In this document: piece by piece, positions 2,591 to 62,548 of the stretch | How the letters are laid out: the number at the start of each line of letters is the position of its first letter | How positions within the stretch are numbered: the stretch's first letter is position 1 | NCBI RefSeq assembly: GCF_014698995.1 | Contig: NZ_JACWZZ010000001.1 | Coordinates: forward strand, 620,001-684,000 | Length of the DNA stretch: 64,000 bases | Reading direction: 5' to 3' | Origin: Hymenobacter duratus | GTDB lineage: Bacteria; Bacteroidota; Bacteroidia; Cytophagales; Hymenobacteraceae | Translations under genes and position numbers: made by a program | The notes under the pieces: generated by a model | What the model saw: the letters and a program-made list of their open reading frames with translations, nothing else | Databases searched by the model: none | What the model was told of the DNA's origin: nothing

Positions 2591-2672
2591 GAGTAGAGTC
2601 GATGGAAGGGAAGCAACCTGCTCCGGCGCCTATAACCATTGTGCCAATGCCCCGGTTTCGCCGAATGCAAAA

Positions 2673-2702
2673 TTGCCGGCCCGGATATTCCGGAACCGGC
2701 AA
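2673..2702 (-). terminator. Terminator after the lytic transglycosylase gene
   Basis: TTGCCGG (2673-2679) pairs with CCGGCAA (2696-2702), with an internal CCGGA/TCCGG. On the minus strand the hairpin is followed by TTTTGC and lies 25 bases past the stop at 2727. Confidence 0.55.
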
Positions 2703-2726
2703 CTGTGCTACCAATCTTGAGTTGAA

Positions 2727-4748
2727 TTAGCGAGCCACAATCAGCTTCTGCCCGGGCTTCACTTCATCCGACGTCAGGTTGTTGAGGCGACGGAGTTGTT
2801 CTACCGTTACGCCCTGGTAGCGGCGTGAGATGTTGTAGAGAGTATCTCCCTTCTGCACCATGTGCACTTTGTGGTCGGCAACGGCTGGTGCCGGCGCGGG
2901 CCGGGCCGCTACGGCGACACTGGCTTTTTCGGGAGTACGGGCTTTTCTAGCCGGTGCTTCTGCCACCGGCGCTTCCTCGTCGGCAGGAGCACGCAGCACC
3001 AGCTTCTGACCGGGCACTACCTTTTCCGAGCCCAGCTCATTCCAGTCCATAAGCTGAGTGGCTGTCAGGCCTCGCTTTTCGGCAATCTTCGCCAGATTAT
3101 CACCGCGCCGAACCACATAGAAACCCGGCAGGCTGTCGTCGGGAGCCGTCAGGGTGGCGGCTGTGGCGGCAGTAGCCGCGGCTTCCTCGCTGATAGCGCG
3201 CGGATTGCGGCTTAGAATGGCACTCCTGACGGGTTCTGCCGCCGCTACCACTTCCTCTATTGCAGTAGGCACAGCGTGTTTGTCCGGCTGAGGCGAAGGA
3301 GAAGTTGCAGAAGCGGTTTTTACAGGAAATGAAGGGAGGCGGGCAGGAGTAGTCGGCTTACGCGCTGCAGCAACAGCAGGCGCGGCGGCCGGCACAGCTA
3401 CCGGCACAAATACCACCAGTTGTTTGCCCGGAACCAGTGGCCGGCCTTGGCGCAGAGCGTTCCAGCGGGCCAACTGGGCCGTACTAACATCGTAACGCCC
3501 GGCTACGGCAGCGGCTGTTTCGCCTCGTCGTACGGTGTGCCGCAAGCGCCGAAACCGTGGAGCCGGAGTGGCATCTTCTTCGCGTGGTGTGCCGTTGGCG
3601 GCCATCGTACGCGCCGGAAATGCTTCTACTCCCTGCAGGCGGGCCATCAGCGGAGCCAGCGGGCTGGGTATATCCGTGCGCGGACGACAATAGTCAAACA
3701 GAGTGCTTCGGTCTACCATGGCCAGCTGTGGGCGGGCTGTGGCGGGCACCTGCACGGCATAGCTGCGGTAGCCTTCCGGCAGCCAGCTGCGTTTCAGCTC
3801 GGGGTTGTAGCGTAGCAGGGCGGAGGAGTCGGCGAAGCCGCAGGCTTGGCTGAGCCGGTGCAGGTCGAGGGCGCGGCCGCCTACCTGGAGCGTATCCATT
3901 ACTTCGGCGTACCGGTAATTCAGCTCCGGCGAGTGCAGGTTGTGGGCCTGCGCGTACTTCATAGAGTACATGATGGCCGTAAAAGTAGGCACGTAGTTGC
4001 GCGTCTCCTTCGGCAGATGTGGATACAGGTCCCAGAATGTTTTCTTGCCAGTGCGCCGCATGGCCCGCTGCATGCTGCCCGCTCCCCAGTTGTAGGCGGC
4101 CAGCACCAGCTCCCAGTCGTGAAAAACGCCGTAGAGGTAGCGCAGATGCTTGCAAGCGGCTTCCGTGGCCTTTTCCGGATTCATCCGCTCATCTACCCAT
4201 TCGTCGCGGCGTAGACGCAGGTCGCCGGCCGTAGGGCCCATGAACTGCCATAAGCCGGTGGCGCCCACGTGCGACTTGGCCGTTGGAATCAGCGCCGATT
4301 CTACAACCGCCAGGTATTTGAGGTCTACGGGCAGGTTGTATTTGGCGAGGTATTTCTCAAACAGCGGAAAATACAGGTTCTCTCGCTCCAGTACCCGCTG
4401 CATGTACTTCCGGTTACGCTCCGTAAAATACAGCACAAACGGCATCACTGCCGGATTGAAGGCGTGCGGAGCGTCGGTTTCAAAGCAGTTGATACGGTCG
4501 CCTACCAGGTCGCGCAGTTCTGGGGGCGTCTGCATCCAAACCAGCTTGGCCGAATCCAGCGGCACGGGCGCCTCTACCAGCGAGTCGGGCAGCAGCTGCA
4601 GGTCCACTACCTGTGTGGTGTCATCGGCACCGGATGGCCTGGGAGCTTCCGGCAGCCTTTCGGGCAGCGTTTGGGCCCATGCAGCCGGCGCCAGAGTAGC
4701 ACTCAGGAGGCTACTGCCTATTACAACACGGAACAGTTTTTTCTTCAT
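2727..4748 (-). CDS. mltD: Membrane-bound-type lytic murein transglycosylase with three LysM domains (MltD-like)
   Basis: A 673-residue exported peptidoglycan-cleaving enzyme. The signal peptide (MKKKLFRVVIG...APAAWA) ends before Gln26. The SLT catalytic domain covers about 125-300, with the catalytic glutamate at Glu150 in LKYLAVVESAL, followed by GATGLWQFM and the AAYNWGAG motif typical of this fold. Three LysM peptidoglycan-binding repeats follow at about 403-448, 545-590 and 628-672, separated by Pro/Ala-rich linkers. It has no lipobox, so it is probably periplasmic rather than lipid-anchored like E. coli MltD. It is expected to cut the glycan strand to 1,6-anhydro ends during wall remodelling. 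Confidence 0.93.
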   Translation of the reverse strand: MKKKLFRVVIGSSLLSATLAPAAWAQTLPERLPEAPRPSGADDTTQVVDLQLLPDSLVEAPVPLDSAKLVWMQTPPELRDLVGDRINCFETDAPHAFNPAVMPFVLYFTERNRKYMQRVLERENLYFPLFEKYLAKYNLPVDLKYLAVVESALIPTAKSHVGATGLWQFMGPTAGDLRLRRDEWVDERMNPEKATEAACKHLRYLYGVFHDWELVLAAYNWGAGSMQRAMRRTGKKTFWDLYPHLPKETRNYVPTFTAIMYSMKYAQAHNLHSPELNYRYAEVMDTLQVGGRALDLHRLSQACGFADSSALLRYNPELKRSWLPEGYRSYAVQVPATARPQLAMVDRSTLFDYCRPRTDIPSPLAPLMARLQGVEAFPARTMAANGTPREEDATPAPRFRRLRHTVRRGETAAAVAGRYDVSTAQLARWNALRQGRPLVPGKQLVVFVPVAVPAAAPAVAAARKPTTPARLPSFPVKTASATSPSPQPDKHAVPTAIEEVVAAAEPVRSAILSRNPRAISEEAAATAATAATLTAPDDSLPGFYVVRRGDNLAKIAEKRGLTATQLMDWNELGSEKVVPGQKLVLRAPADEEAPVAEAPARKARTPEKASVAVAARPAPAPAVADHKVHMVQKGDTLYNISRRYQGVTVEQLRRLNNLTSDEVKPGQKLIVAR

Positions 4749-4833
4749 TCGCTTGGCCGGGTTATCGTGTTATAAAACGAAAGGCCCTGATTCAAATCGG
4801 GTTAAATATACTCAGCACAAGTACAACTCCAAG

Positions 4834-4885
4834 GTAAAAGCCAAAACGACGAGCGGTAACTGCCGCTCGTCGTTTTGGCTTTTAC
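4834..4885 (-). terminator. Strong terminator after gatA
   Basis: A perfect 23-base stem (4834-4856 with 4863-4885) closes a 6-base loop. It starts 17 bases past the gatA stop, so it should end the tatA-tatA-gatA transcript. Confidence 0.85.
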
Positions 4886-4901
4886 TCTGAAAACAGCCTG
4901 T

Positions 4902-6338
4902 TTATGCAGGAGTCAGAGTTTCAGTCAAGGAGTTGGCGAAAGCCAGCAGGTGCTCCTCGCGGAACGCGCCGCTTATAACCTGCAGCCCAATCGGCAGCCC
5001 TTGCGAGTCGTGGCCGGCGGGCACCGACACGGCCGGTACGCCAGCCAGTGAGGCCTGCACCGTAAATATATCGGCCAGATACATGGCCAGGGTGTCTTTG
5101 TTCACCTCCCCAATACGGAAGGCCGTGGTAGGCGCGGTTGGCAACACCAGAAAATCGTACTGGCGCAGCAATTCGTCGGTTTTGTCCTTGATGAGGCGGC
5201 GTACCTGCTGCGCTTTGGTGTAGTACGCGTCGTAATAATCAGCTGACAGCACGAAGGTGCCCAGCAGAATACGGCGCTGCACTTCCGGCCCAAAACCCTG
5301 CGAGCGGGTCTTTTTGTAGAGTGAAGCCAGGTCAGTAGCATCCGGAGCCCGATAGCCGTACTTCACACCATCGAAGCGGCTCAGGTTGGAGCTGGCTTCG
5401 GCGGTGGTCAGGATGTAATAGGTAGGCACCATGTAGTCGAGGTAAGGGAAATCTACCGCGTCTACCACATGGCCCTGGCCGCGTAGCTCTTCCAGCTTAC
5501 GTTCCAGCGCCTCCTTTATCTCCGGGTCGAGGCCGGGGCGCTCCACCGCGTCGCGGATGTAGCCGATGCGGTAATGAGGCGCCGGCTCCAGCAGCTGGCT
5601 GTAAGCGGGCACATCACGCTGGCTGGCCGTGCTATCGAAGTTATCGGCGCCGGCCATTACTTCCAGCAGCAGCGCAGCATCCTCTACGGAGCGGGTAAGG
5701 GTACCAATCTGATCAAACGACGAGGCATAGGCAACCAGACCGTAGCGGGAAATCCGTGAGTACGTAGGCTTAAAACCGACAATACCACAGAACGCCGCCG
5801 GCTGCCGCACCGAGCCGCCGGTGTCCGAGCCAATCGAAGCCAGGCACATATCGGCTTGCACCGCCACGGCCGAACCACCCGAAGAACCACCCGAAACCCG
5901 CTCTTCGTCCAGCGCATTGCGCACCGGCCCAAAATAAGATGTTTCGTTTGAAGCGCCCATCGCAAACTCGTCGCAGTTCTGGCGTCCAATGAAGATGGCG
6001 TCCTCATCCAGCAGCCGCTGTACTGCCGAAGCGGTGTACAGCGACTTGAAGCCGTCCAGAATGTGGCTGCTGCTTTGCAGCGCGTGGTCTTTGTAGGCCA
6101 GCACATCCTTCAGCCCGATAACCATACCGGCCAGCTTGCCGGCCGTGCCGGCCGCCAGTTTAGCATCTATGGCATCAGCCTGGGCACGTGCTTCATCGGG
6201 CCATACTTCCAGAAAAGCGTTGAGGCGGCCGTTCTGCCGCTCAATGTTGTCCAGATAATACTCCACGAGCTGACGGCAGGTCGTGGTGCCTGCCGTCAGC
6301 TCGTGGCGAACTTCCGTGAGAGAATGAAAGCGTCTCAA
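4902..6338 (-). CDS. gatA: Glutamyl-tRNA(Gln) amidotransferase subunit A
   Basis: A 478-residue amidase that releases ammonia from glutamine so that GatB can convert misacylated Glu-tRNA(Gln) to Gln-tRNA(Gln). The amidase-signature catalytic triad is complete: Lys77 (GLKDVLAYKDH), the cis-Ser in GGSSGGSAVAV at about 153, and nucleophile Ser176 in SDTGGSVRQPAAFCG. Length and order match GatA. gatB and gatC are not in the window, so the subunits are scattered, as is common in Bacteroidota. The start lies 14 bases after the stop of the second tatA gene, so the three genes are probably co-transcribed, which is an odd functional mix. Confidence 0.95.
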   Translation of the reverse strand: MRRFHSLTEVRHELTAGTTTCRQLVEYYLDNIERQNGRLNAFLEVWPDEARAQADAIDAKLAAGTAGKLAGMVIGLKDVLAYKDHALQSSSHILDGFKSLYTASAVQRLLDEDAIFIGRQNCDEFAMGASNETSYFGPVRNALDEERVSGGSSGGSAVAVQADMCLASIGSDTGGSVRQPAAFCGIVGFKPTYSRISRYGLVAYASSFDQIGTLTRSVEDAALLLEVMAGADNFDSTASQRDVPAYSQLLEPAPHYRIGYIRDAVERPGLDPEIKEALERKLEELRGQGHVVDAVDFPYLDYMVPTYYILTTAEASSNLSRFDGVKYGYRAPDATDLASLYKKTRSQGFGPEVQRRILLGTFVLSADYYDAYYTKAQQVRRLIKDKTDELLRQYDFLVLPTAPTTAFRIGEVNKDTLAMYLADIFTVQASLAGVPAVSVPAGHDSQGLPIGLQVISGAFREEHLLAFANSLTETLTPA

Positions 6339-51954: not shown

Positions 51955-52104
51955 GGAATTGCGTGTTTAGAAAGACAAAGTTCGGGAAAAGATGAGGGTT
52001 TGGTACGGAATAGAATGTTTTCTATATTTCTCTTCGCATTATATAACACTGCGCGACTTGCCTTCGTCTAGGCCGTGCGGACTCATTTGTAGTTGCTTAT
52101 CTCC

Positions 52105-54720
52105 GTGAAGAAACTAATGCTGCCGCTACTAGCGGTGTTGCTCCCTTTGGCCGCTACGGCTCAGCTGACCGAAACCTTTGCCGATGGAGAATTTACCCAA
52201 AATCCTTCTTGGACCGGCGACGCTACCTCTTTTCAGGTTACGAGCCAGCAACTGCAAAGCGACGGCCCGGCCACTACCGGCACCCAACTTCAACTCGTGA
52301 CGCCTTGCCAAGCCGCTACAGGTGGCACTGTATGGGAATTCTGGGCCAATCTGCGCCTAGCTACCAGCAGTGGCAACTACGCCGATGTGTGGCTGGTGTC
52401 GGAGCAGGCAGATTTGAAAGCCACCGGCAACCGTGGCTATTTCGTGCGCCTCGGCGGCACTCCCGACGAAGTGTCCCTGTTCCGTAAGGACGCCACCGGC
52501 AGCCCGGTCTACGTCGTAAATGGGGCCGATGCGACTCTTAGCTCGCTCACCAACAACCTGGTGCGGGTGCGCGTAAGCCGCTCGGCTACTGATGCATGGA
52601 ACCTGGAGCGCGACCTGACAGGCGGCACTACCTATACCAGCGAAGGCAGCGCCTCTGATGCTACCTACCAGCGCGGGTTTTATTTCGGGGTGTACCTCAC
52701 GTATTCGGCCGCCAACAACAGGGCGTTCTATTTCGATGATTTTCGGGTGCAGGATTCTGCCGCGCCCCGGCTGCTAAGTGCCGGTGTTGCGGGCGCGCAG
52801 CAGCTGGACTTAACTTTCAATGAGCCAGTAGCCACTCCCCAAGTTGCGGCCAACTACCGCCTAACCGCTACCGGCGCGCCGGCCGTTACGGCCGCGCAGC
52901 GCGACGCCACCGACCCGGCCCTCGTGCACCTGACGCTGGCCGCCGCGTTGCCGCTCGGGCCGAACACCGTGGAGGCCCGCACCATTTCCGACCTCTACGG
53001 AAATACCGCCGCTGGTCCCCTGGCCGCCAGCTTTACCTATACCGGAACGGCAGTAGCACCAACCATCAACCAAGTGCTCATCACCGAAATATTCGCGGAC
53101 GAAACGCCGGTTGTGGGCTTGCCATCCTCAGAGTATCTGGAAATCCACAACCCGTCGGCTACGGCGGTGCTGGACCTGGCGGGCGTGCGACTCCTGAAAC
53201 CGGGACAGACCGGCAACCCGGCCGTATTTCCGGCCGGTGCCACGCTGCTGCCCGGCGAATATGCGGTGGTGTGCGGCAGCACTCGGGTGCCACAATTTGC
53301 GGCCTATGGCAAAGTATTCGGGCTGAGTAATTTTCCGAGCCTGACCAATGCCGGTGACCAGCTGCTGTTGCGCAGCCGGGACGGCCGGACCTTGTTCGAA
53401 ATCAGCTACTCCGATACCTGGTACAAGGACAGCCGCAAGAAGGAGGGAGGCTGGAGCCTGGAAATGGTAGACCCTGCCAACCCCTGCGCCGGCATCGAGA
53501 ACTGGACGGCCAGCACCGATGCCAGCGGCGGCACCCCCGGCCGCGCCAACTCCGTGCGTACCTCCAACCCTGACCGCGCGGCGCCTGTATTGCTGCGCGC
53601 GTTGGCTCTGAACCCGACTACTGTGCGGCTGTTTTTTGGGGAGAAGCTCGATAGCCTCGCGGCGGCTAATACGGCCCTTTACGGCCTGAGCCCAGCCGTT
53701 GCGGTTACCCGCGCTGCTCCTGAAGCACCCGATTTTCGCACCGTAGACCTAACGCTGGGAACGGCTCTGCAAGCCAACCAGGCGCTGACCGTAACGGTGC
53801 AGCGCGCCACCGACTGTGTGGGCAATGCAGCCGGGTCGGCTACTTCCGCCACGTTTGGGCTACCGTCAGCCGCAGCGCCGGGCGACGTGGTTATCAACGA
53901 AATTCTGTTTAACCCGCGCACCAATGCCGTGGATTTCGTGGAGCTGCTGAACCGCTCCGGCAAGTACCTGGACGTGCAGAACTGGCAGCTCGGCAACGAA
54001 AAGCCCGACGGCAGCGTGGACGCGGAGCAAATCAGTAGCGGCGCCTACGTGCTGGCGCCCGGCCAGCTTGTGCTGCTCACCACCCGCCCCGATATCGTGC
54101 AAAGCCAGTACCCGACCAGCTCCGAACCGGCGGCGTTTCTGGCGATGTCCGGATTTCCAATTTTTCCCGATGATGCAGGCGTAGTGGCGGTATTCGACGG
54201 CCAGGGCCGCAGTCTGGACCGCTACAGCTACAACAAAGACCAGCACCTGAAGCTGCTGGATGACCTAAACGGCGTGTCGCTGGAGCGTATCCGGGCGGAA
54301 GGGCCCAGTACGGCGGCCAATTTCCATTCGGCCGCCAGTAGCGTGGGCTATGCCACGCCGGGCCGCCGCAACTCGCAGCAGCAAGACGCAGCAGGCGGCG
54401 CGCAGCAGTTCAGTGTCGAGCCCGAGGTATTCACCCCCGATGAGGATGGCATGCAGGACTTCACCACCCTCAACTATCAGTTGGATGGTACCGGGTATGC
54501 GGCCAGCGTCACGGTATACGATGCACAAGGCCGCCTCACACGCCGGCTGGTTCGCAACGAAACACTGGCTACCAGTGGTTTTTTCCAATGGGACGGCCTC
54601 ACCGACCGGGGCCAGAAAGCGGCCGTCGGCTACTATGTGCTGCTGGTAGAGCTGTTTGGGCCCAACGGCGGCAGTAAGCAGGAGTACAAAAAGACGGTGG
54701 TGCTGGGGGCGCGGTTCTGA
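52105..54720 (+). CDS. Secreted lamin-tail-domain protein with FlgD-like C-terminus
   Basis: An 871-residue exported protein. A GTG at 52105 gives the signal peptide KKLMLPLLAVLLPLAATA, then Gln (QLTE); the frame also opens at a TTG at 52093. An N-terminal beta region (about 20-220) resembles a laminin-G/concanavalin fold, followed by Ig-like SwmB-type stretches. A lamin-tail domain (about 310-450, VLITEIFADETPVVGLPSSE) and a second one (about 590-720, VVINEILFNPRTNAVDFVEL) follow. It ends in a FlgD-like Ig fold (VEPEVFTPDEDGMQDFTTLN) as used for T9SS export. It lies directly before the DUF1800-DUF1501 pair. Confidence 0.87.
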   Translation: MKKLMLPLLAVLLPLAATAQLTETFADGEFTQNPSWTGDATSFQVTSQQLQSDGPATTGTQLQLVTPCQAATGGTVWEFWANLRLATSSGNYADVWLVSEQADLKATGNRGYFVRLGGTPDEVSLFRKDATGSPVYVVNGADATLSSLTNNLVRVRVSRSATDAWNLERDLTGGTTYTSEGSASDATYQRGFYFGVYLTYSAANNRAFYFDDFRVQDSAAPRLLSAGVAGAQQLDLTFNEPVATPQVAANYRLTATGAPAVTAAQRDATDPALVHLTLAAALPLGPNTVEARTISDLYGNTAAGPLAASFTYTGTAVAPTINQVLITEIFADETPVVGLPSSEYLEIHNPSATAVLDLAGVRLLKPGQTGNPAVFPAGATLLPGEYAVVCGSTRVPQFAAYGKVFGLSNFPSLTNAGDQLLLRSRDGRTLFEISYSDTWYKDSRKKEGGWSLEMVDPANPCAGIENWTASTDASGGTPGRANSVRTSNPDRAAPVLLRALALNPTTVRLFFGEKLDSLAAANTALYGLSPAVAVTRAAPEAPDFRTVDLTLGTALQANQALTVTVQRATDCVGNAAGSATSATFGLPSAAAPGDVVINEILFNPRTNAVDFVELLNRSGKYLDVQNWQLGNEKPDGSVDAEQISSGAYVLAPGQLVLLTTRPDIVQSQYPTSSEPAAFLAMSGFPIFPDDAGVVAVFDGQGRSLDRYSYNKDQHLKLLDDLNGVSLERIRAEGPSTAANFHSAASSVGYATPGRRNSQQQDAAGGAQQFSVEPEVFTPDEDGMQDFTTLNYQLDGTGYAASVTVYDAQGRLTRRLVRNETLATSGFFQWDGLTDRGQKAAVGYYVLLVELFGPNGGSKQEYKKTVVLGARF

Positions 54721-54779
54721 GGAAGCCTGCGTAGCATGAAGCGAGTTAAACCCGCGGCGCAGAATTGCGTCCAAGCACC

Positions 54780-56345
54780 ATGACGACGACGCAACAGCAA
54801 CTGCAGCACCTGTACTGGCGCGCCGGGTTCGGACCACGGCCCGAAGACATAGCCGCTGGCCTTTCACCACGCAAAGCCCTGCGCCAATTGCTGCGCGACT
54901 CCGAGAAAGTTGAGCTGCTCGATGGCCCAACCATGCGCTATACTGAACCGCTGGCGCAGTTTCGGCTGGTTGCTCCGGCAGCAGGCACGCCACAGTCAAG
55001 TATGGTAACTACCCCCGACCAAACGGCTATGACTGTCGGTACGGAACTGCCTGCGCTACCAAGCCGCTCGGCGCTGCCCGCCCAGCCGAAGGGGCGTGCT
55101 CAGCCGCCGTTGCTGCGCCGCCAAGACATGAATGCCCAGCAGCGCAAACTGCAGAACCAGAGTATTCGGGATGCTTTTTACGCCATGAATACCGGCTGGA
55201 TGGAGCGGATGGCTACTTCGCCGGCACAGCTGCGTGAAAAGCTGACGTTCTTCTGGCACGGCCATTTTGCCTGCCGGGTGCGCCGCCCCGATGCCGCTTT
55301 GCACCTCAACAACACCATCCGGCAGCTCGCGCTGGGTAAATTTTCTGATCTGCTGCTGGCCGTGAGCAAGGAGCCCGCTATGCTGCAGTTCCTCAACAAC
55401 CAGCAAAACCGCAAGCAGCGGCCCAACGAGAACTTCGCTCGGGAGGTGATGGAGCTCTTCACGATGGGCCGCGGCAACTACACCGAAACCGACATCAAGG
55501 AAGCGGCCCGCGCCTTCACGGGCTGGGGCTACGATGCGCAGGGACACTTTGTGTTTCGGGAAAAACAGCACGACGACGGCAGCAAGACCTTTCTGGGGCG
55601 CACCGGAAACTTCACCGGCGAGCAGGTGCTGGGTATTATTCTGGAGCAGCCGCGCACGGCCGAGTACCTCACCACCAAGCTCTACCGGTTCTTCGTAAAC
55701 GATACGCCCAACCCGGCGCATATTCAGCCGCTGGCCCAGGCGTTTTTTAAGAGCGGCTACGATATCAGCGCTTTGCTGGAGCAGATGTTTACGGCCGACT
55801 GGTTCTATGCGCCGGCCCATGTGGGTACCCGCATCAAGTCGCCGGTAGAGCTGCTGGCGGGTATCAAGCGCACTATGGGGCTACAACTCGCGGATGACAA
55901 ACCGCTCATTGTATTTCAGAAGGCCCTGGGGCAAACGCTATTTGAGCCGCCAAACGTAGCGGGCTGGCCCGGCGGCCGCAACTGGATAGATTCGTCGTCG
56001 CTGCTGTCCCGTTTGCAGTTGCCCTCGGTGCTGCTCAAAAATGCCGAGTTTAATGTGGCGCTGAAGCAGGATGAAAACGACATAGCTCCTAACCTGACGC
56101 GGGCCGACCGCACCTTTCAGCAGCAGGTGAAAACGACCGTGAAGCTGGGGCCGGTGCAGGCGCTTCTGGCCAAAACACCCTCGGAAAAGCAGGCCGCGCA
56201 GCTCAGCGGATTTGTATTGCAGGTCCCGATTCGCTCCGAAAACCTGGCCCTCATTCAGCAGGCTGCCGACAAGGCCCCGGCCGAAGTAAGGTTGCGCGCT
56301 ATGGTCACGAGCCTGCTCAGTCTGCCAGAATACCAGTTGATGTGA
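54780..56345 (+). CDS. DUF1800 family protein
   Basis: A 521-residue protein of the DUF1800 family, which is usually encoded beside a DUF1501 protein. Family features include the opening LYWRAGFGPRPEDIAAGLSP, the region REKLTFFWHGHFACRVRRPD, the motif NENFAREVMELFTMGRGNYTE and AARAFTGWGY, and the C-terminal GTRIKSPVELLAGIKRTMGL and PNVAGWPGGRNWIDSSSLLS. No signal peptide is seen at the ATG at 54780, although its partner has a Tat signal. The molecular role is unknown. Confidence 0.92.
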   Translation: MTTTQQQLQHLYWRAGFGPRPEDIAAGLSPRKALRQLLRDSEKVELLDGPTMRYTEPLAQFRLVAPAAGTPQSSMVTTPDQTAMTVGTELPALPSRSALPAQPKGRAQPPLLRRQDMNAQQRKLQNQSIRDAFYAMNTGWMERMATSPAQLREKLTFFWHGHFACRVRRPDAALHLNNTIRQLALGKFSDLLLAVSKEPAMLQFLNNQQNRKQRPNENFAREVMELFTMGRGNYTETDIKEAARAFTGWGYDAQGHFVFREKQHDDGSKTFLGRTGNFTGEQVLGIILEQPRTAEYLTTKLYRFFVNDTPNPAHIQPLAQAFFKSGYDISALLEQMFTADWFYAPAHVGTRIKSPVELLAGIKRTMGLQLADDKPLIVFQKALGQTLFEPPNVAGWPGGRNWIDSSSLLSRLQLPSVLLKNAEFNVALKQDENDIAPNLTRADRTFQQQVKTTVKLGPVQALLAKTPSEKQAAQLSGFVLQVPIRSENLALIQQAADKAPAEVRLRAMVTSLLSLPEYQLM

Positions 56346-56437
56346 TTAAGACAGACCCCGGGATTTAGGCCGCAGAACATCGGATTGTTCCGTGGCCCCA
56401 CTTTTAAGTGCTGGGCTCTCATTTCTAAGTTCTCTCC

Positions 56438-57649
56438 ATGACTACTTCCCGCCGCGACTTTCTTAAGACTTCAGTGCTGGCCAGCAGCCTGCTCTTCGTG
56501 CCTAAATTTCTGCACGCGTTGGACCGGCAAGGCCTTAAAAGCCTGCGCGACGCGCGAGGCCGCCGCTTGGTGGTGGTGCAGCTGGGCGGTGGCAATGATG
56601 GGCTGAATACCGTTATTCCGTACCGCAACGACCTGTACTATAAAGCCCGGCCCACGCTCGGCATCAGAGAGCAAAGCGGTATTCTGACGTTGGATAAAGA
56701 CCTTGGCTTTAACCCAGCCATGAAGCGGCTGAAAGGCCTTTACGACCAAGGGCAGGTAGCTGTACTCAACTCTGTGGGCTACCCCAACCCCGACCGGTCA
56801 CATTTTCGCTCCATGGACATCTGGCAAAGCGGCTCTGCCTCCGACCAGTACCTGAGCACGGGTTGGCTAGGCCGCTACCTCGACTCTAACTGCCCATCCT
56901 GCCAGGTGCCATACAACGGACTGGAAGTGGACGACACCCTAAGTCTGGCCATGAAAGGCGACCTGCGCAAAGGCCTAGCGCTGAAGAATCCGACCAAGTT
57001 TCATCAGATAACCCAGAACCGTTTTATTGCGCAGGTGAGCGGCGAAAAGCCTGCTGGAACCGTGTCGGAGCTGGATTATCTGTACAAGACGCTGGCCGAA
57101 ACCTCGTCTTCAGCCGACTATCTGTACCAGACCAGCAAGGTCTACAAATCGGCGGTAACGTACCCAAACACGGAATTTGGCCGCAACCTGAAAACCACCG
57201 CCGAGCTGATTAATTCCGGTATTGAGTCGCGCGTGTTTTATGTCTCGCTCACCGGCTTCGATACGCACGTGCGCCAGCAGGAGCAGCAGGGCAAGCTACT
57301 CGGTGATTTATCGGAAGGCCTGGGCTCCTTTGCCGAAGACCTGCAGAAAGCAGGCAACTTCGATGATACGCTGGTGCTGGTGTTTTCGGAGTTCGGGCGC
57401 CGCGTAAGCCAGAATGCCAGCAACGGCACCGACCACGGTACCGCCAACAATGTGCTGCTTGTGGGCGGCGGGCTGCAGCAGAAAGGCGTCCTCAACAACG
57501 CGCCCGATTTGCAGAACCTGCTCGATGGAGACCTACGCCACCAACTCGACTTCCGCAGCCTCTATGCCACCCTCCTGCACGACTGGCTGGAAGCCGACGA
57601 CCAAGCTATTCTGGGCAGCCGGTTTGAGCGCCTGAAAGGACTTGTTTGA
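56438..57649 (+). CDS. DUF1501 family protein with Tat signal
   Basis: A 403-residue protein with a twin-arginine signal at the start (MTTSRRDFLKTSVLASSLLF, RR at 5-6). It is thus a probable substrate of the Tat system, two TatA subunits of which are encoded at 6353-6993. The DUF1501 domain resembles sulfatase/alkaline-phosphatase-like folds: VVVQLGGGNDGLNTVIPY, YPNPDRSHFRSMDIWQSGSA, SLTGFDTHVRQQEQQGKL, VFSEFGRRVSQNASNGTDHG. It follows the DUF1800 gene by 92 bases. The function is unknown; the pair is often found in cell-surface contexts. Confidence 0.92.
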   Translation: MTTSRRDFLKTSVLASSLLFVPKFLHALDRQGLKSLRDARGRRLVVVQLGGGNDGLNTVIPYRNDLYYKARPTLGIREQSGILTLDKDLGFNPAMKRLKGLYDQGQVAVLNSVGYPNPDRSHFRSMDIWQSGSASDQYLSTGWLGRYLDSNCPSCQVPYNGLEVDDTLSLAMKGDLRKGLALKNPTKFHQITQNRFIAQVSGEKPAGTVSELDYLYKTLAETSSSADYLYQTSKVYKSAVTYPNTEFGRNLKTTAELINSGIESRVFYVSLTGFDTHVRQQEQQGKLLGDLSEGLGSFAEDLQKAGNFDDTLVLVFSEFGRRVSQNASNGTDHGTANNVLLVGGGLQQKGVLNNAPDLQNLLDGDLRHQLDFRSLYATLLHDWLEADDQAILGSRFERLKGLV

Positions 57650-57693: not shown

Positions 57694-58539
57694 TCAACGT
57701 TCTATTACAAGTCCCACGTAATACTCTCGTTCTGCACTGCTACTGATAGCGAAACGTCGGCCAAAATCCAGTTGCACCCGCTCACTTACATGAAATATAG
57801 GGCCCGTGCTGATTGCCGAATTCCATTGATGGGTTTTCAGGTTTTTGCTGGTTGAGAATTCTGCAAATGCGGCCAGCCAGTCGTTGAAGCCGTGGTCAAC
57901 GGCAACGGATGGGGCCAGTTCTACGGCATGTTGCTTGGCGTCCCGGTCGTAGCTTAAAAAAGAGGCCGCCTGGGCACTGATATGCCATTCATGCTGAAAA
58001 TTGTAGGTTGCCGGCACCAGTATTCCGTATTCGTAGCCGCCTGTTCCTTGGCTCCCTCCGGTGGGCAAACGCACAAAGCCGATGGCAGCCACTACCAATG
58101 CGTCAGCTTCGTCGTCGTCGCCAATAAAATTGTGCTTCATGCGCAGGGCCACGTCGCCGAAGCCGGCACTCCGCTCCATTGGCTCTCCCGGTTCCCACTG
58201 CTTTTCCACGGTGTAGGGGTCCACGAACACCTGCACTTCGGTATGGTCGGTGAGGCCGGCCCGGATGGCAAAGGCATTCAGACGCATCACGCGTGAACGG
58301 GGTTCTTGGCTGGGTTTGCTGGTAATAAGGCGCACAAGGTCGGTTTCCAGTTGCATGCGCCCCCGCCCCACGGTGTTGGGACTCTCCGTTACGCCAGGAC
58401 GGTCGGCGTTGAGTGGCCGCAATTGCCGTTTTGGTCCCTGTTCCACATCGGCCGGACGGGTTTGGCTGGCCCGTTTGAGCGTGTCAGGAGCGGTGGGCGA
58501 ACTGGCCAAGCTCAAAGCCAATGTTAGGGTAAGCAGCAT
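57694..58539 (-). CDS. Outer-membrane transporter-like protein (MetA-pathway-of-phenol-degradation type)
   Basis: A 281-residue exported beta-barrel-like protein. An N-terminal hydrophobic signal (MLLTLTLALSLASSPTA) is followed by the family pattern NADRPGVTESPNTVGRGRMQ, then beta strands such as FAIRAGLTDHTEVQVFVDP, GFGDVALRMKHNFIGDD and YEYGILVPATYNFQHEW, ending in GLVIER. Proteins of this family form small outer-membrane barrels of unknown substrate. It is the last gene of the TonB receptor group (63 bases after the receptor gene), which suggests a role in metal or small-molecule uptake. Confidence 0.82.
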   Translation of the reverse strand: MLLTLTLALSLASSPTAPDTLKRASQTRPADVEQGPKRQLRPLNADRPGVTESPNTVGRGRMQLETDLVRLITSKPSQEPRSRVMRLNAFAIRAGLTDHTEVQVFVDPYTVEKQWEPGEPMERSAGFGDVALRMKHNFIGDDDEADALVVAAIGFVRLPTGGSQGTGGYEYGILVPATYNFQHEWHISAQAASFLSYDRDAKQHAVELAPSVAVDHGFNDWLAAFAEFSTSKNLKTHQWNSAISTGPIFHVSERVQLDFGRRFAISSSAEREYYVGLVIER

Positions 58540-58602: not shown

Positions 58603-60867
58603 CTATAAACTATAGCGCACCCCCAGAAACGTACGCCGGCCCTGCAGCGGCGCAAAGTTATAGCTGGTATCGAAAGTATAGCCGTTGGGGTTGTTCTGGC
58701 TCACGGCTTTATCGAACGGGTCGAAGGGGCGTAGCAGCGCGTGGCGAGGCAGGAAGTCAAGCAGGTTTTTCACCCCACCGTACAGTTCCAGGCCTGGCCC
58801 CAGCCGTTTAGTGGCCTGCAGATTCTGCAGCGAAAACCACGGCGAGCGGCTGGCACGGAAGTCGTTGGGCTGTACCGGCAACTGCATCGGTCCGCTCACC
58901 TGTCCGGTATAGTCTACCGTCAGGCCCAGTTGCGTGAAAGTGTAGCTGGCGGTATAGGTGCCCGAGAATACTGGCGCATGGAATTGTGCTACCCGCCGCA
59001 GGGCCTCACCTTCGGCAAGTCGTTCGCGCCTGAAAACATCCATTATGGTAACGCCCGCAATCAGCTTCAGAGGCCGCGAAAAGGCGAAATCAGTGTTCAG
59101 TGAAATGCCCCGCGAAATAGCGTAGCCGTCGAGGTTGCGGTAGATAATCTGGTTGGGGTCGGTGTCGTAGTCGGGGCTGATTTTGTTGGTGAAATAAGTA
59201 TAGAACAGGCTGCCATCGAAGGTGAGCGTGCCACCCGCTCTGGTCGTGACAAAGCGCGTGTAGTTTATGTTGGCATTCCAGCTGCGTTCCGGCCGCAGCG
59301 CTTCTGGCACTACCACCTGGCGGGCTCCGGTGAGGGCAGCGTGGTCTTCCGTAAAGAGGTTTACTACCCGGTAGCCATTGCCGATACCTACCCGAAATAC
59401 GCGGCTGCCGTCCACCGTGCCCCATTTGTAGTTGAGGCGCGGTGTCAGGATGTTGCCGTGCCGCGGATTGTAGTCGTAGCGCAGCCCGGCCAGCAGGGTA
59501 GCATCGGGCGTGAGCCGGAACTCGTCCTGCACAAACACGCCCGGCAGGTTAATCAGGTCGGGTTGATTGTGCTGCTCACTACCGGTGGCCGGTGTATTAT
59601 CATCGTACCAGGTAGAGCGGAAAGCCGCGCCCAGCAGCAGGTTGTGGCGAATATTTGGGTTTTTAGCCCAGGTCAGCTGACTGAAGCCCACCCGTTGCGT
59701 TGCGTTGTAGCGCGTGGTGCCATAGGCTGAGTTTTGGCGGTGCTGGTTAAACGAGCCACTTAGCATTAGTTTCTGGCTCGCCACCGGCAACTGGTACTGG
59801 CCCAGCAGCTCGTAGCGGCTGGTATACACACTCTCACCATACACACTGTCGCCGCCTCGAAACTCGGGCCGCCAGCCCAATTGGCCCCCAAACCGGTCCT
59901 CGTAATAGTAGCGGCCGGCTAGGCTGGCCGCACGCTGCTCGGGCCGCTGCCAGCTCCATTTGTTAAACACCGATACCCGGTGTTGTGTGGGCACATCCGT
60001 AAAACCGTCACGGTTCACGTCGCGGCGCTGGTTGTAGCCATATAGATTGGTGCTGAGCAGGGTAGAGGCGGTGCCTACTTTTGCGGCCGTGCCCAGATCC
60101 AGATTTAGGTCGCGGTGTGAGGTGCCGAAGATATCGGCCGAAAAGCGCGGGGCTTTGGCTGGGTTCTTTGTAATAACGTTGATCAGGCCACCCACTGCCT
60201 CTGAGCCATACAGCGTCGAGGCGGGACCTTTTACCACTTCCACTCGCTCCACTAGGCTACTCGGAATGCCGCTCAACCCATACACCGTGCTTAGCGAGCT
60301 GACGATGGGCATTCCGTCAATCAGCACCATCGTGTAGGGGCCTTCCAGCCCGTTGATGTGAATGTCGCCGGTGCCGCACACGTTGCAGTTGAGCTGGGGG
60401 CGCACGCCATTCACCATCGTCAGGTTCTCGAAAAGACAGGGGCTGGGGTTCTTCTGAAAATAACGCGGCGTATACAGCTCCACGGCTATTGGCGACTCGC
60501 TCTTGAGGACTTCGCCCAGAGTGCCGCTCACTACCACTTCGCCCAGCGCACTGCTGGCGGGCGCCACCGCAATGGCTACCGTGGTGGCTTTTCCTGCCGA
60601 AACCGTCACGGAGCGTTCCATCGGCTGAAATCCTACGGCCGTAGCAACCAGCCTGTAGCTGCCAGGCGTCAGCTTGGGCAAACTAAAAGCACCATGCTCA
60701 TCGGCAGTAGTGCCCGTGCTGGTACCCTTCACCCCAATGCTGGCAAACGGTACTGCTTTGCCCTCAGCCCGGACTGTGCCCCGTATGCTTCCCGGTTGGC
60801 TCCACCCTTCGGAGGCAGTGCTCCAGATCAGCAGGAGCGTAAGTAAAAGCTGTTTCATGGCCTGCAT
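58603..60867 (-). CDS. TonB-dependent outer-membrane receptor
   Basis: A 754-residue active-uptake barrel. The signal peptide ends before Gln24 (WSTASEGWS then QPGS). A carboxypeptidase-regulatory-like domain covers about 27-100, the TonB box region (GEVVVSGTL) follows, and the plug is at about 110-240 (NGLEGPYTMVLIDGMPIVSS ... VKGPASTLYGSEAVGGLINV). A 22-strand barrel runs to the C-terminal Leu. The plug carries NCNVCGTGD, a CxxC pair that may bind or reduce something. It starts at ATG 60867, or at 60858 (MKQLLL). An operator-like inverted repeat just upstream matches one before the Nramp gene, pointing to Mn or Fe uptake. Confidence 0.9.
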   Translation of the reverse strand: MQAMKQLLLTLLLIWSTASEGWSQPGSIRGTVRAEGKAVPFASIGVKGTSTGTTADEHGAFSLPKLTPGSYRLVATAVGFQPMERSVTVSAGKATTVAIAVAPASSALGEVVVSGTLGEVLKSESPIAVELYTPRYFQKNPSPCLFENLTMVNGVRPQLNCNVCGTGDIHINGLEGPYTMVLIDGMPIVSSLSTVYGLSGIPSSLVERVEVVKGPASTLYGSEAVGGLINVITKNPAKAPRFSADIFGTSHRDLNLDLGTAAKVGTASTLLSTNLYGYNQRRDVNRDGFTDVPTQHRVSVFNKWSWQRPEQRAASLAGRYYYEDRFGGQLGWRPEFRGGDSVYGESVYTSRYELLGQYQLPVASQKLMLSGSFNQHRQNSAYGTTRYNATQRVGFSQLTWAKNPNIRHNLLLGAAFRSTWYDDNTPATGSEQHNQPDLINLPGVFVQDEFRLTPDATLLAGLRYDYNPRHGNILTPRLNYKWGTVDGSRVFRVGIGNGYRVVNLFTEDHAALTGARQVVVPEALRPERSWNANINYTRFVTTRAGGTLTFDGSLFYTYFTNKISPDYDTDPNQIIYRNLDGYAISRGISLNTDFAFSRPLKLIAGVTIMDVFRRERLAEGEALRRVAQFHAPVFSGTYTASYTFTQLGLTVDYTGQVSGPMQLPVQPNDFRASRSPWFSLQNLQATKRLGPGLELYGGVKNLLDFLPRHALLRPFDPFDKAVSQNNPNGYTFDTSYNFAPLQGRRTFLGVRYSL

Positions 60868-60890
60868 ATTTAGGCTGTGCTATGACTATT

Positions 60891-60908
60891 TTTTAGATTA
60901 GTCTAAAA
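60891..60908 (-). promoter_or_regulatory. DtxR/MntR-like operator before the TonB receptor gene
   Basis: The inverted repeat TTTTAGA-TTAG-TCTAAAA (7-base arms) lies about 24-33 bases upstream of the possible receptor starts. The same arms, with a different 4-base spacer, occur before the Nramp gene at 62366-62385. This suits a metal-sensing repressor of the DtxR/MntR family; the regulator gene is not in the window. Confidence 0.6.
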
Positions 60909-60960
60909 TCGTTGTTGCAAAAAAACGCAGCACTAGCAAGCCACTGCGTTTCTCAGGAGA

Positions 60961-62331
60961 CTATCCGAAAAATGTCTCGTACAGCAAGTACACGTTCAGC
61001 ACGATAATAATGCCGGACACTATCCAGGCCAGCACCTGCACCCACGGCCGGTTCACGAATACGCCCATTTTGGCTTTGCTACTGGTAAAAAGCACCAGCG
61101 GCACCACCGCAAAGCTCAGCTGAAAGGACAGGATGACCTGGCTGAGCACCAGTAGCTCTCCAGTGCCTTTCTCGCCGTAAATCAGCGTCACGATAAGTGC
61201 TGGCACCACCGCAATAGCCCGGGTGATAAGGCGCCGCAGCCAGGGGCGCAGTTTCAGATCCAGAAAACCTTCCATCACAATCTGCCCGGCCAGGGTGCCG
61301 GTCAGCGTGGAGTTCTGGCCCGACGCCAGGAGCGCCACCGCAAACACAGCGCTGGCTGCGCCGGCACCCAGCACTGGGGCCAGTAGCTTGTGCGCGTCGC
61401 TGATGTCGGCTACGTTGTGCAGGCCGTTGCGGTGGAATGCCGCTGCGGCTGTAATAAGAATAGCCGCATTCACGAAAAACGCGAGGAAAAGCGCGACGGT
61501 CGAGTCGATGGTGGCAAACTTGATGGCCATGCGTTTGCCGGGCTCTGTCTGCTCGATGGCGCGCGTCTGCACGATGCTCGAATGCAGGTACAGGTTGTGG
61601 GGCATTACCGTAGCGCCCAGAATCCCGATGGCAATGTAGAGCATCTTGGGGTTGGTTACGACTTGCGGCTGCGGCACCAGGCCACCGAGAATGCCGAAGT
61701 AGTCGGGGTTCGATACGATGATTTCGTACAGGAAGCACCCAAAAATCACGACTGTTAAGCCGGCAACAATGCTTTCTATCACGCGGAAACCGCGGCTCTG
61801 AAACAGCAACACTACCAGCACATCCAGAATGGTAAGCACTACGCCCCACGGCAGGGGTAGGCCAAACAGCAGGTTCAGGGCAATGGCCGAGCCGATGACT
61901 TCTGCCAGGTCGCAGGCGGCAATGGCAATTTCACACAGAAACCAGAGCACCATCGAAACCGGCTTGGAGAAATGGTCCCGGCAAGCCTGCGCCAGGTCGC
62001 GCCCGGTTACGATACCCAATTTGGCTGCCAGATGCTGCAGCAGCATGGCAAACAGGTTGGATATCAGGATGACCGAAAGCAGCGTGTAGCCAAACTGCGA
62101 CCCACCGGCAATGTCGGTGGCCCAGTTGCCGGGGTCCATGTAACCCACGGCTACCATCAGGCCCGGGCCCCAGAAAGCCCTCATCTTACGCCAGAACGAG
62201 GCGTCGGTAGAGGGTACTTTGATACTGGCATGAACTTCACTCAGCGAAACAGAAGTGCGGACGCGCCGCCAGCCTGCGTCGGCAGGGGCTACTGCTGGCT
62301 GGGTAGGAGGCGGTTGTAGTGCTGGGGTCAT
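60961..62331 (-). CDS. mntH: Nramp-family divalent metal transporter (Mn/Fe)
   Basis: A 456-residue inner-membrane metal:proton symporter of the Nramp/MntH family, with about 11 helices. The metal-binding DPGN is present (GYMDPGNWATDIAGG; Asp66 and Asn69), and the second motif MPHN (GATVMPHNLYLHSSIVQTR) supplies the conserved Met. Manganese is the expected main substrate, iron possible. The ATG at 62331 gives the family length; the longer frame from 62547 has no support. A -7 box and an operator-like palindrome sit immediately upstream, so expression is probably metal-repressed. Confidence 0.95.
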   Translation of the reverse strand: MTPALQPPPTQPAVAPADAGWRRVRTSVSLSEVHASIKVPSTDASFWRKMRAFWGPGLMVAVGYMDPGNWATDIAGGSQFGYTLLSVILISNLFAMLLQHLAAKLGIVTGRDLAQACRDHFSKPVSMVLWFLCEIAIAACDLAEVIGSAIALNLLFGLPLPWGVVLTILDVLVVLLFQSRGFRVIESIVAGLTVVIFGCFLYEIIVSNPDYFGILGGLVPQPQVVTNPKMLYIAIGILGATVMPHNLYLHSSIVQTRAIEQTEPGKRMAIKFATIDSTVALFLAFFVNAAILITAAAAFHRNGLHNVADISDAHKLLAPVLGAGAASAVFAVALLASGQNSTLTGTLAGQIVMEGFLDLKLRPWLRRLITRAIAVVPALIVTLIYGEKGTGELLVLSQVILSFQLSFAVVPLVLFTSSKAKMGVFVNRPWVQVLAWIVSGIIIVLNVYLLYETFFG

Positions 62332-62356
62332 GGGGGCGTGCAACGGAACAGGTAGG

Positions 62357-62364
62357 CAAATATA
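62357..62364 (-). promoter_or_regulatory. -7 box (TATATTTG) for the Nramp gene
   Basis: Matches TAnnTTTG on the minus strand about 25 bases before the ATG at 62331. The palindrome at 62366-62385 lies directly upstream, so a bound repressor would block RNA polymerase. Confidence 0.6.
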
Positions 62365-62365
62365 C

Positions 62366-62385
62366 TTTTTAGACTTGTCTAAAAA
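62366..62385 (-). promoter_or_regulatory. DtxR/MntR-like operator before the Nramp gene
   Basis: The inverted repeat TTTTTAGA-CTTG-TCTAAAAA (8-base arms, exact) touches the -7 box at 62357-62364. Its core matches the repeat before the TonB receptor gene at 60891-60908. No DtxR or MntR gene is in the window. Confidence 0.7.
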
Positions 62386-62548
62386 TATTTTTAAGGCAAC
62401 ATAAATACCTTGATCAGGGCGAAAAGGTTTGCTCAGAACGGCGAAATGTGACCTGCTGTGCTCAGGCAGTCTTTCTCTACCGCAATAATTGCCAACCGAC
62501 CAATGGCGGCAGCCCTGGAATGCAGCGAACCAGCGGACGGCGCACAAA

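Follow-up and report, generated by a model that had tools for sequence, protein, structure and literature searches.

Two copies of the palindrome TTTAGA-N4-TCTAAA, which precede a TonB receptor gene and an Nramp gene (mntH) in Hymenobacter duratus, and a third copy on another contig are very likely operators of a single DtxR-family, MntR-like repressor, which would control mntH, the receptor together with the PF13557 protein encoded behind it, and a DHOR (di-heme oxidoreductase) operon. The first two copies lie within a window of 64,000 nucleotides (positions 620,001 to 684,000 of contig NZ_JACWZZ010000001.1), which is the whole stretch of DNA analyzed here. This palindrome pair is real and not a chance occurrence.

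Palindromes of the mntH locus and their conservation

An earlier note on this DNA had proposed that the two palindromes define a small metal regulon. Both are present as exact copies at 60892-60907 and 62368-62383, and the gene identities given there hold, namely a TonB receptor, an Nramp protein and, behind the receptor, a PF13557 protein (Table 1). The copy before the receptor gene, TTTAGATTAGTCTAAA, is part of an extended TTTTAGA-N4-TCTAAAA, and the copy before mntH, TTTAGACTTGTCTAAA, extends to TTTTTAGAC-TT-GTCTAAAAA. They are the sole matches in the window even when two mismatches are allowed, a tolerance at which shuffled sequences are expected to give 0.83. In the H. duratus genome (4.67 Mb, 7 contigs), TTTAGA-N4-TCTAAA occurs three times as an exact match, and allowing a single mismatch adds no further site. 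Two of the three are at the metal locus and the third lies before a redox operon with links to dtxR or nramp elsewhere; this distribution, together with the presence of a DtxR-type regulator, supports the idea of a small metal regulon over that of random matches. A larger regulon of this motif in the same genome was considered and rejected because the scan with two mismatches returned 36 sites, compared to 50 for the reversed control, which is background. On the plus strand of the window, a large ORF (52093-54720) and a DUF1800/DUF1501 pair (54765-57649) head towards the minus-strand metal locus.

Table 1. Coordinates of the genes and predicted regulatory elements of the metal locus in the window.
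Feature	Position	Strand	Basis
PF13557 protein, 281 aa, 63 bp behind the receptor gene	57694..58539	-	Pfam
TonB-dependent receptor, 754 aa, CNVC in plug; translation may start at ATG 60858	58603..60867	-	PF00593/PF07715
Weak second copy, 23 bp downstream of the receptor operator	60869..60884	-	3 mismatches
Predicted TonB receptor operator, TTTAGACTAATCTAAA on gene strand	60892..60907	-	exact palindrome; extended form 60891-60908
mntH, Nramp-family divalent-metal importer, 456 aa	60961..62331	-	PF01566 E 1e-135; NF001923
Putative -7 promoter box, TATATTTG	62357..62364	-	one base from extended palindrome
Primary predicted MntR-type operator of mntH, TTTAGACAAGTCTAAA on gene strand	62368..62383	-	extended perfect arms 62366-62385
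Second, weaker predicted operator, TTTATGTTGCCTTAAA on gene strand, 22 bp upstream	62390..62405	-	2 mismatches to TTTAGR-N4-YCTAAA

The Nramp protein passes the NCBIfam MntH model NF001923 (639 bits, cut-off 430), and its nearest six named Nramp loci are all from Hymenobacter, with identities of 79-86%. An Nramp orthologue was found in all 61 sampled Hymenobacter genomes. Since the sixth base of the arm is A or G across the genus, the strict A-form undercounts sites: it is present anywhere in only 35 of the 61 genomes, with 43 sites versus 10 for the reversed-pattern control (rows summed). Loci were gathered for 30 of these 35 genomes; besides the window, 23 of 29 strict-form loci have an Nramp gene within 1.5 kb and six (L027, L030, L031, L038, L042, L043) do not, two of which (L030 and L038) were inspected by ORF only. 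With the sixth base relaxed, an exact TTTAGR-N4-YCTAAA precedes Nramp in 61 of 61 genomes, as compared with a chance expectation of 0.006 per 30 upstream regions in first-order Markov simulations. One Nramp copy was counted per genome, and three Nramp fragments, of which two are in G003 and one is in G036, lie outside the count; an exact site is present at the extra copy L278 and absent at the extra copy L279, whose match begins at residue 71. In 30 aligned Nramp loci, the arms carry 1.84 bits per column, compared to 0.57 for the core and 0.62 for the flanks. The sites lie upstream of start codons, at a distance of 27-95 bases in nearly all loci and of 270 bases in one kind of locus. These genus counts are not independent because the genomes share ancestry; more independent support comes from loci where dtxR and nramp diverge across the operator, from DHOR loci of other families and from gene order in Ignavibacteria.

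Across the order Cytophagales, the bare pattern was mostly inseparable from the reversed control, with the exception of a few genera, and wider searches were therefore anchored on genes. Three genomes of one genus in another family of the order (G176, G203, G228) contain 25-34 exact TTTAGR-N4-YCTAAA sites each, compared to 3-8 for the reversed control, possibly representing a much larger regulon or another regulator. Palindromes of the form GTTAGN-N4-TCTAAC, a possible variant operator, are located near the inferred Nramp start in five loci from Chryseobacterium and Soonwooa (L054, L057, L063, L066, L103).

The palindrome upstream of mntH was also said to touch a -7 box. This wording is slightly too strong, with one base separating the box from the extended palindrome. 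The sequence of the box, read from 62364 to 62357, fits TAnnTTTG, which we take to be the Bacteroidota -7 consensus. This consensus is not strictly kept, since an exact TAnnTTTG at or just 3' of the operator occurs in only 4 of 30 Nramp loci of the genus (two of them overlapping the operator); it occurs in none of 26 receptor promoters, and the idea of a conserved -7 box was dropped.

A weaker copy of the operator accompanies the primary site of mntH at a fixed distance. At exactly -22 bp, a copy with at most two mismatches is present in 45 of the 61 Hymenobacter genomes and one with at most three mismatches in 52, while any other offset within 40 bp is represented in at most three. The strongest secondary peak of the receptor operators (26 sequences) is at +23, with another at +22, and the best secondary peaks of the DHOR operators (14 sequences) are at -22 and +22. 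The paired sites at -22 suggest two repressor dimers, and as 22 bp corresponds to about two helical turns, such dimers would share one face of the DNA.

The candidate regulator

As the earlier note anticipated, the genome encodes a DtxR/MntR-type regulator, whose homologues in relatives diverge from Nramp across the same operator. It is the sole protein of this family in H. duratus (one PF02742 match above the cut-off) and is encoded on another contig. The protein has 219 residues, with HTH, metal/dimerization and FeoA domains. A DtxR-family gene is present in all 61 sampled Hymenobacter genomes and is single-copy in 59. No exact operator is located before the regulator's own gene in H. duratus.

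Nine directly divergent dtxR-nramp pairs were read, a count that leaves out L120. Six of them have an exact operator between the two genes and a DtxR-family protein that is 49-55% identical to that of H. duratus; they come from Fibrisoma, Arcicella, Rudanella, two Dyadobacter and a Cytophagaceae contig (L065, L067, L072, L076, L079, L106). The remaining three (L058, L074, L077) are more distant and carry variants that deviate at 2-3 positions (GTTAGGTATGCCTAAT in L058, for example), and a cursory look at the divergent pairs L101 and L108 revealed other palindromes. In L068, the stretch read is that between dtxR and a TonB receptor gene, not directly before Nramp; here (~2600-6010), dtxR and the receptor gene diverge from either side of GTTAGGTGTGCCTAAT, and Nramp is 2.7 kb from dtxR. 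Overall, 24 of the 80 named Nramp loci include a DtxR-family gene no more than 1 kb away.

The best of four NCBIfam models for the regulator is that of the Thermus manganese regulator MntR (NF047407), where it scores 168 bits, below the cut-off of 350. Its PDB matches include the metalloregulators ScaR and SloR. At the position of Cys102 in DtxR, an iron-type cysteine equivalent to Glu99 of B. subtilis MntR, the protein has a glutamate, and at the position of Asp8 in B. subtilis MntR it has an asparagine, in a provisional comparison with the B. subtilis sequence. The manganese-type ligands are described as Asp8 and Glu99 in B. subtilis MntR numbering (PMC4805248). With this mixture of ligands, manganese is the likely metal of the regulator, and iron is possible.

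Genes behind the predicted operators

Of the 60 Hymenobacter genomes that could be read behind Nramp (the contig of the 61st ends too early), 31 have an exact site there at a distance of at most 300 bp; among the 30 loci nearest to the window, 26 do. The other 29 genomes have no exact site within this distance, and some of them have no receptor there. Among the 30 closest Hymenobacter loci, 28 have a receptor behind Nramp, which is of one of two unlike kinds. The first (10 of 28) is 59-100% identical to the receptor of the window and has CN[VI]C in the plug, while the second (18 of 28) shares only 26-40% identity with it across the matched part and lacks cysteines in the plug; either kind can follow an exact operator. 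The two plug cysteines of the window receptor have the C-x-x-C form, as in the CQNC type of receptor. The exact letters CQNC were not found in this receptor, which reads CNVC and is thus not filed as a member of that type. As the CQNC receptor of Stenotrophomonas is MntR-controlled, the CNVC type is, by analogy, a good candidate for a manganese receptor.

The PF13557 protein is probably a small outer-membrane barrel, and no operator is found between the receptor gene and the PF13557 gene in the window. In two other Hymenobacter loci (L151, L152), in which no receptor was found, the PF13557 gene directly follows Nramp. Contigs L108 and L113, from Verrucomicrobia, encode homologues less than 100 bp from Nramp, and a dtxR-nramp run in Ignavibacteria closes with another PF13557 protein. 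This gives the protein some independent linkage to Nramp. The TonB receptor and the PF13557 protein may both take part in metal import.

The third exact site is on a plasmid-like contig (C6), which bears a Rep_3 plasmid initiator gene. It is followed by genes for a two-heme DHOR protein (DHOR is presumably the Pfam family DUF1111), a Rieske protein and a barrel-like protein, the last label being assigned from sequence, with an empty Pfam result for two homologues. The earlier note, right about two sites and their genes, had missed this site as well as the second operator at 22 bp and the two receptor kinds. DHOR is found at E ≤1e-20 in nine of 100 genomes of the family, H. duratus included; an exact operator begins 23-26 bases before the inferred first codon in all four close homologues and is absent before the five distant ones. 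A phylum-wide search yielded 27 further DHOR loci in 26 genomes. A Rieske match is next to DHOR in all 27 and a barrel match is present in 26, the exception (L234) being near a contig end. Their best sites have no mismatch in three loci, one in seven, two in eight, three in four and four in five. A strict TTAG/CTAA palindrome is present in 12 of the 27, five of them from one genus with one sequence, compared to none in the reversed control and 0.04 expected. A DtxR-family gene is located at most ~450 bp upstream of DHOR in four (L211, L212, L213, L225). The DtxR proteins of L211 and L213 have a different recognition helix, and the DHOR operons of one genus (L216, L219, L221, L224, L237) have TTTAGTCATGACTAAA instead of the operator; operator and regulator may have changed together. 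One Ignavibacteria contig encodes, in a single direction, DtxR, Nramp, DHOR, Rieske, barrel-like and PF13557 proteins, and no operator was seen on it.

Six plasmid records were read from 72 with a DHOR-like match. The cassette with an exact operator is present on plasmids of Hymenobacter sp. HDW8, H. radiodurans, H. qilianensis and Haliscomenobacter, which are four of the five Bacteroidota plasmids read, with HDW8 and H. radiodurans identical in sequence there. The Fibrella plasmid carries the cassette and has no site within one mismatch. The sixth record, a Thermus thermophilus plasmid (L246), lists an imelysin gene and no Rieske gene; its imelysin and DHOR genes follow an Nramp gene at a distance of ~4.5 kb. 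On L241, L242 and L245, three Hymenobacter plasmids, a ferritin gene and the operator-bearing DHOR operon diverge from each other, and a CusA/CzcA efflux gene follows the operon on two plasmids with the same proteins on both. On the plasmids of H. radiodurans (L242, 5052-6223) and H. qilianensis (L245, 5015-6271), the annotation splits DHOR into two pieces, and the gene may be broken or mis-sequenced there.

Two CxxCH motifs are present in 34 of 35 DHOR rows (the 35th was not properly read), a loose lipobox pattern matches 25 of the 35, and no DHOR match was found among PDB sequences at E 0.01. Among the titles and abstract openings listed from the open-access literature under the operon names used, no description of a DHOR/Rieske/barrel operon was found. 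The predicted third operator ties this operon to the same putative metal sensor. We tentatively consider, as a rather doubtful reading, that the operon is a mobile envelope redox system for metal starvation, which would change the redox state of manganese, or of iron, outside the inner membrane, being plasmid-borne and wired to the chromosomal MntR of the host through the host operator. If so, it could, for example, reduce Mn(III/IV) such that MntH can import Mn(II).

Alternative readings, proposed mechanism and known systems

The operators may be read by the same DtxR-family repressor with iron, or iron and manganese equally, as the signal, in which case the regulon would be one of Fe(II)/Mn(II). 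We regard this as possible but not probable. The second-best PDB match of the regulator is 8pvt, which we take to be the structure of the Deinococcus protein DR2539. Ferritin genes diverge from the DHOR operon on the three Hymenobacter plasmids mentioned above, two of them with the same proteins. DR2539 is reported to repress mntH with both metals (PMC3327659), and DUF1111 di-heme peroxidases have been tied to imelysin iron uptake (PMC3143127). However, the Nramp protein passes a manganese-specific MntH model, the key ligand of the regulator is a glutamate rather than the iron-type cysteine, and the genome contains separate Fur-family genes.

There are three such genes (PF01475), and Mur, a Fur-family protein, controls mntH in some Alphaproteobacteria. 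Recognition of the palindromes by a Fur-family protein (Fur, Mur or Zur) is nevertheless very unlikely, considering the divergent DtxR genes across an exact operator in six Cytophagales loci and the DtxR-family genes near DHOR (4 of 27) and Nramp (24 of 80), as seen in scans that covered DtxR-family genes only. It is even less plausible, to the point of being negligible, that the sites are transcription terminators or chance AT-rich repeats. They are inverted repeats adjoining T and A runs, but their arms are AT-rich, they lie upstream of start codons, and their conservation and exact 22-bp phasing fit protein binding. A chance origin is refuted by the excess over control sites (43 versus 10), the Markov expectation of 0.006 and the conservation before all 61 Nramp genes. 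Several observations also weigh against an MntR-like repressor: the regulator falls far short of the MntR cut-off and has asparagine at the Asp8 position (in the same provisional comparison), its own gene lacks an exact site, and three Fur-family genes are present. Moreover, three of nine divergent pairs have only variants with 2-3 mismatches, the Ignavibacteria run has no operator, 29 of 60 genomes lack an exact site behind Nramp, and the bare pattern is mostly at control level across the order.

For the preferred MntR-like repressor, gene order and conservation suggest the following model of binding, metal, repression, cooperativity and transport. In the metal-loaded state (most likely with Mn(II), possibly with Fe(II) too), the repressor would occupy, as two dimers, sites 22 bp apart on the mntH promoter and, lying beside the -7 box, block transcription, with all three promoters being shut. 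At low metal, the dimers would leave, and mntH, the receptor and the PF13557 protein would be expressed. The receptor and the PF13557 protein would then carry the metal across the outer membrane, and MntH would bring Mn(II) across the inner membrane. Through the third operator, the same repressor would govern the operon of DHOR (a relative of di-heme peroxidases), Rieske and barrel-like proteins where the plasmid is present. To our knowledge, outer-membrane import of manganese in Gram-negative bacteria is still poorly known. The operators provide a genus-wide list of candidates for this step, namely the PF13557 protein and TonB receptors of two unlike types. They also link an uncharacterized plasmid-borne di-heme/Rieske operon to a DtxR/MntR regulator.

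Several known systems resemble parts of this arrangement. DR2539 of Deinococcus radiodurans is likewise a DtxR-family repressor with an inverted repeat in the mntH promoter, but the available portion mentions no TonB receptor or DHOR operon and does not give the operator letters (PMC3327659). SloR of Streptococcus mutans, also of the DtxR family, binds adjacent stronger and weaker palindromes at mntH cooperatively, with C-terminal dimer-dimer contacts (PMC12096823). The H. duratus regulator likewise has a C-terminal FeoA domain, and binding at the Hymenobacter operator pair may be cooperative as well, although SloR has a different operator sequence and a Gram-positive host without an outer membrane (PMC12096823). 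PgMntR of Porphyromonas gingivalis is a DtxR-family Mn(II)/Fe(II) regulator from Bacteroidota with affinity for a manganese transporter promoter (PMC4805248). It differs in that it has a pair of FeoA domains and that its ligand at the position of the Hymenobacter glutamate is Cys108, and the terms palindrome and inverted repeat are absent from the main text (PMC4805248). The imelysin/DUF1111 operons similarly place putative di-heme peroxidases beside metal uptake genes, but they contain imelysin and are under Fur control in P. aeruginosa (PMC3143127), while the Hymenobacter cassette has Rieske and barrel-like proteins and a DtxR-type operator.

The closest likeness is to the MntR module of Stenotrophomonas maltophilia, which consists of mntH, mntP and TBDR-pTFP, with three MntR boxes in the genome, at mntH and at a TonB-dependent receptor among them (PMC13217887). 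The plug motif is CQNC in the Stenotrophomonas receptor (PMC13217887) and CNVC in that of the window, and plug cysteines are missing from 18 of the 28 Hymenobacter receptors. The Stenotrophomonas box is a 25-bp palindrome (PMC13217887), as opposed to the 16-bp TTTAGR-N4-YCTAAA with a copy 22 bp away in Hymenobacter, where the PF13557 protein and a separate DHOR operon would also take part. Thus, the logic of the regulon is already known from MntR and from the Stenotrophomonas module with its TonB receptor, while what is new is the operator array, the exchange between receptors of two unlike kinds and the redox operon borne on a plasmid.
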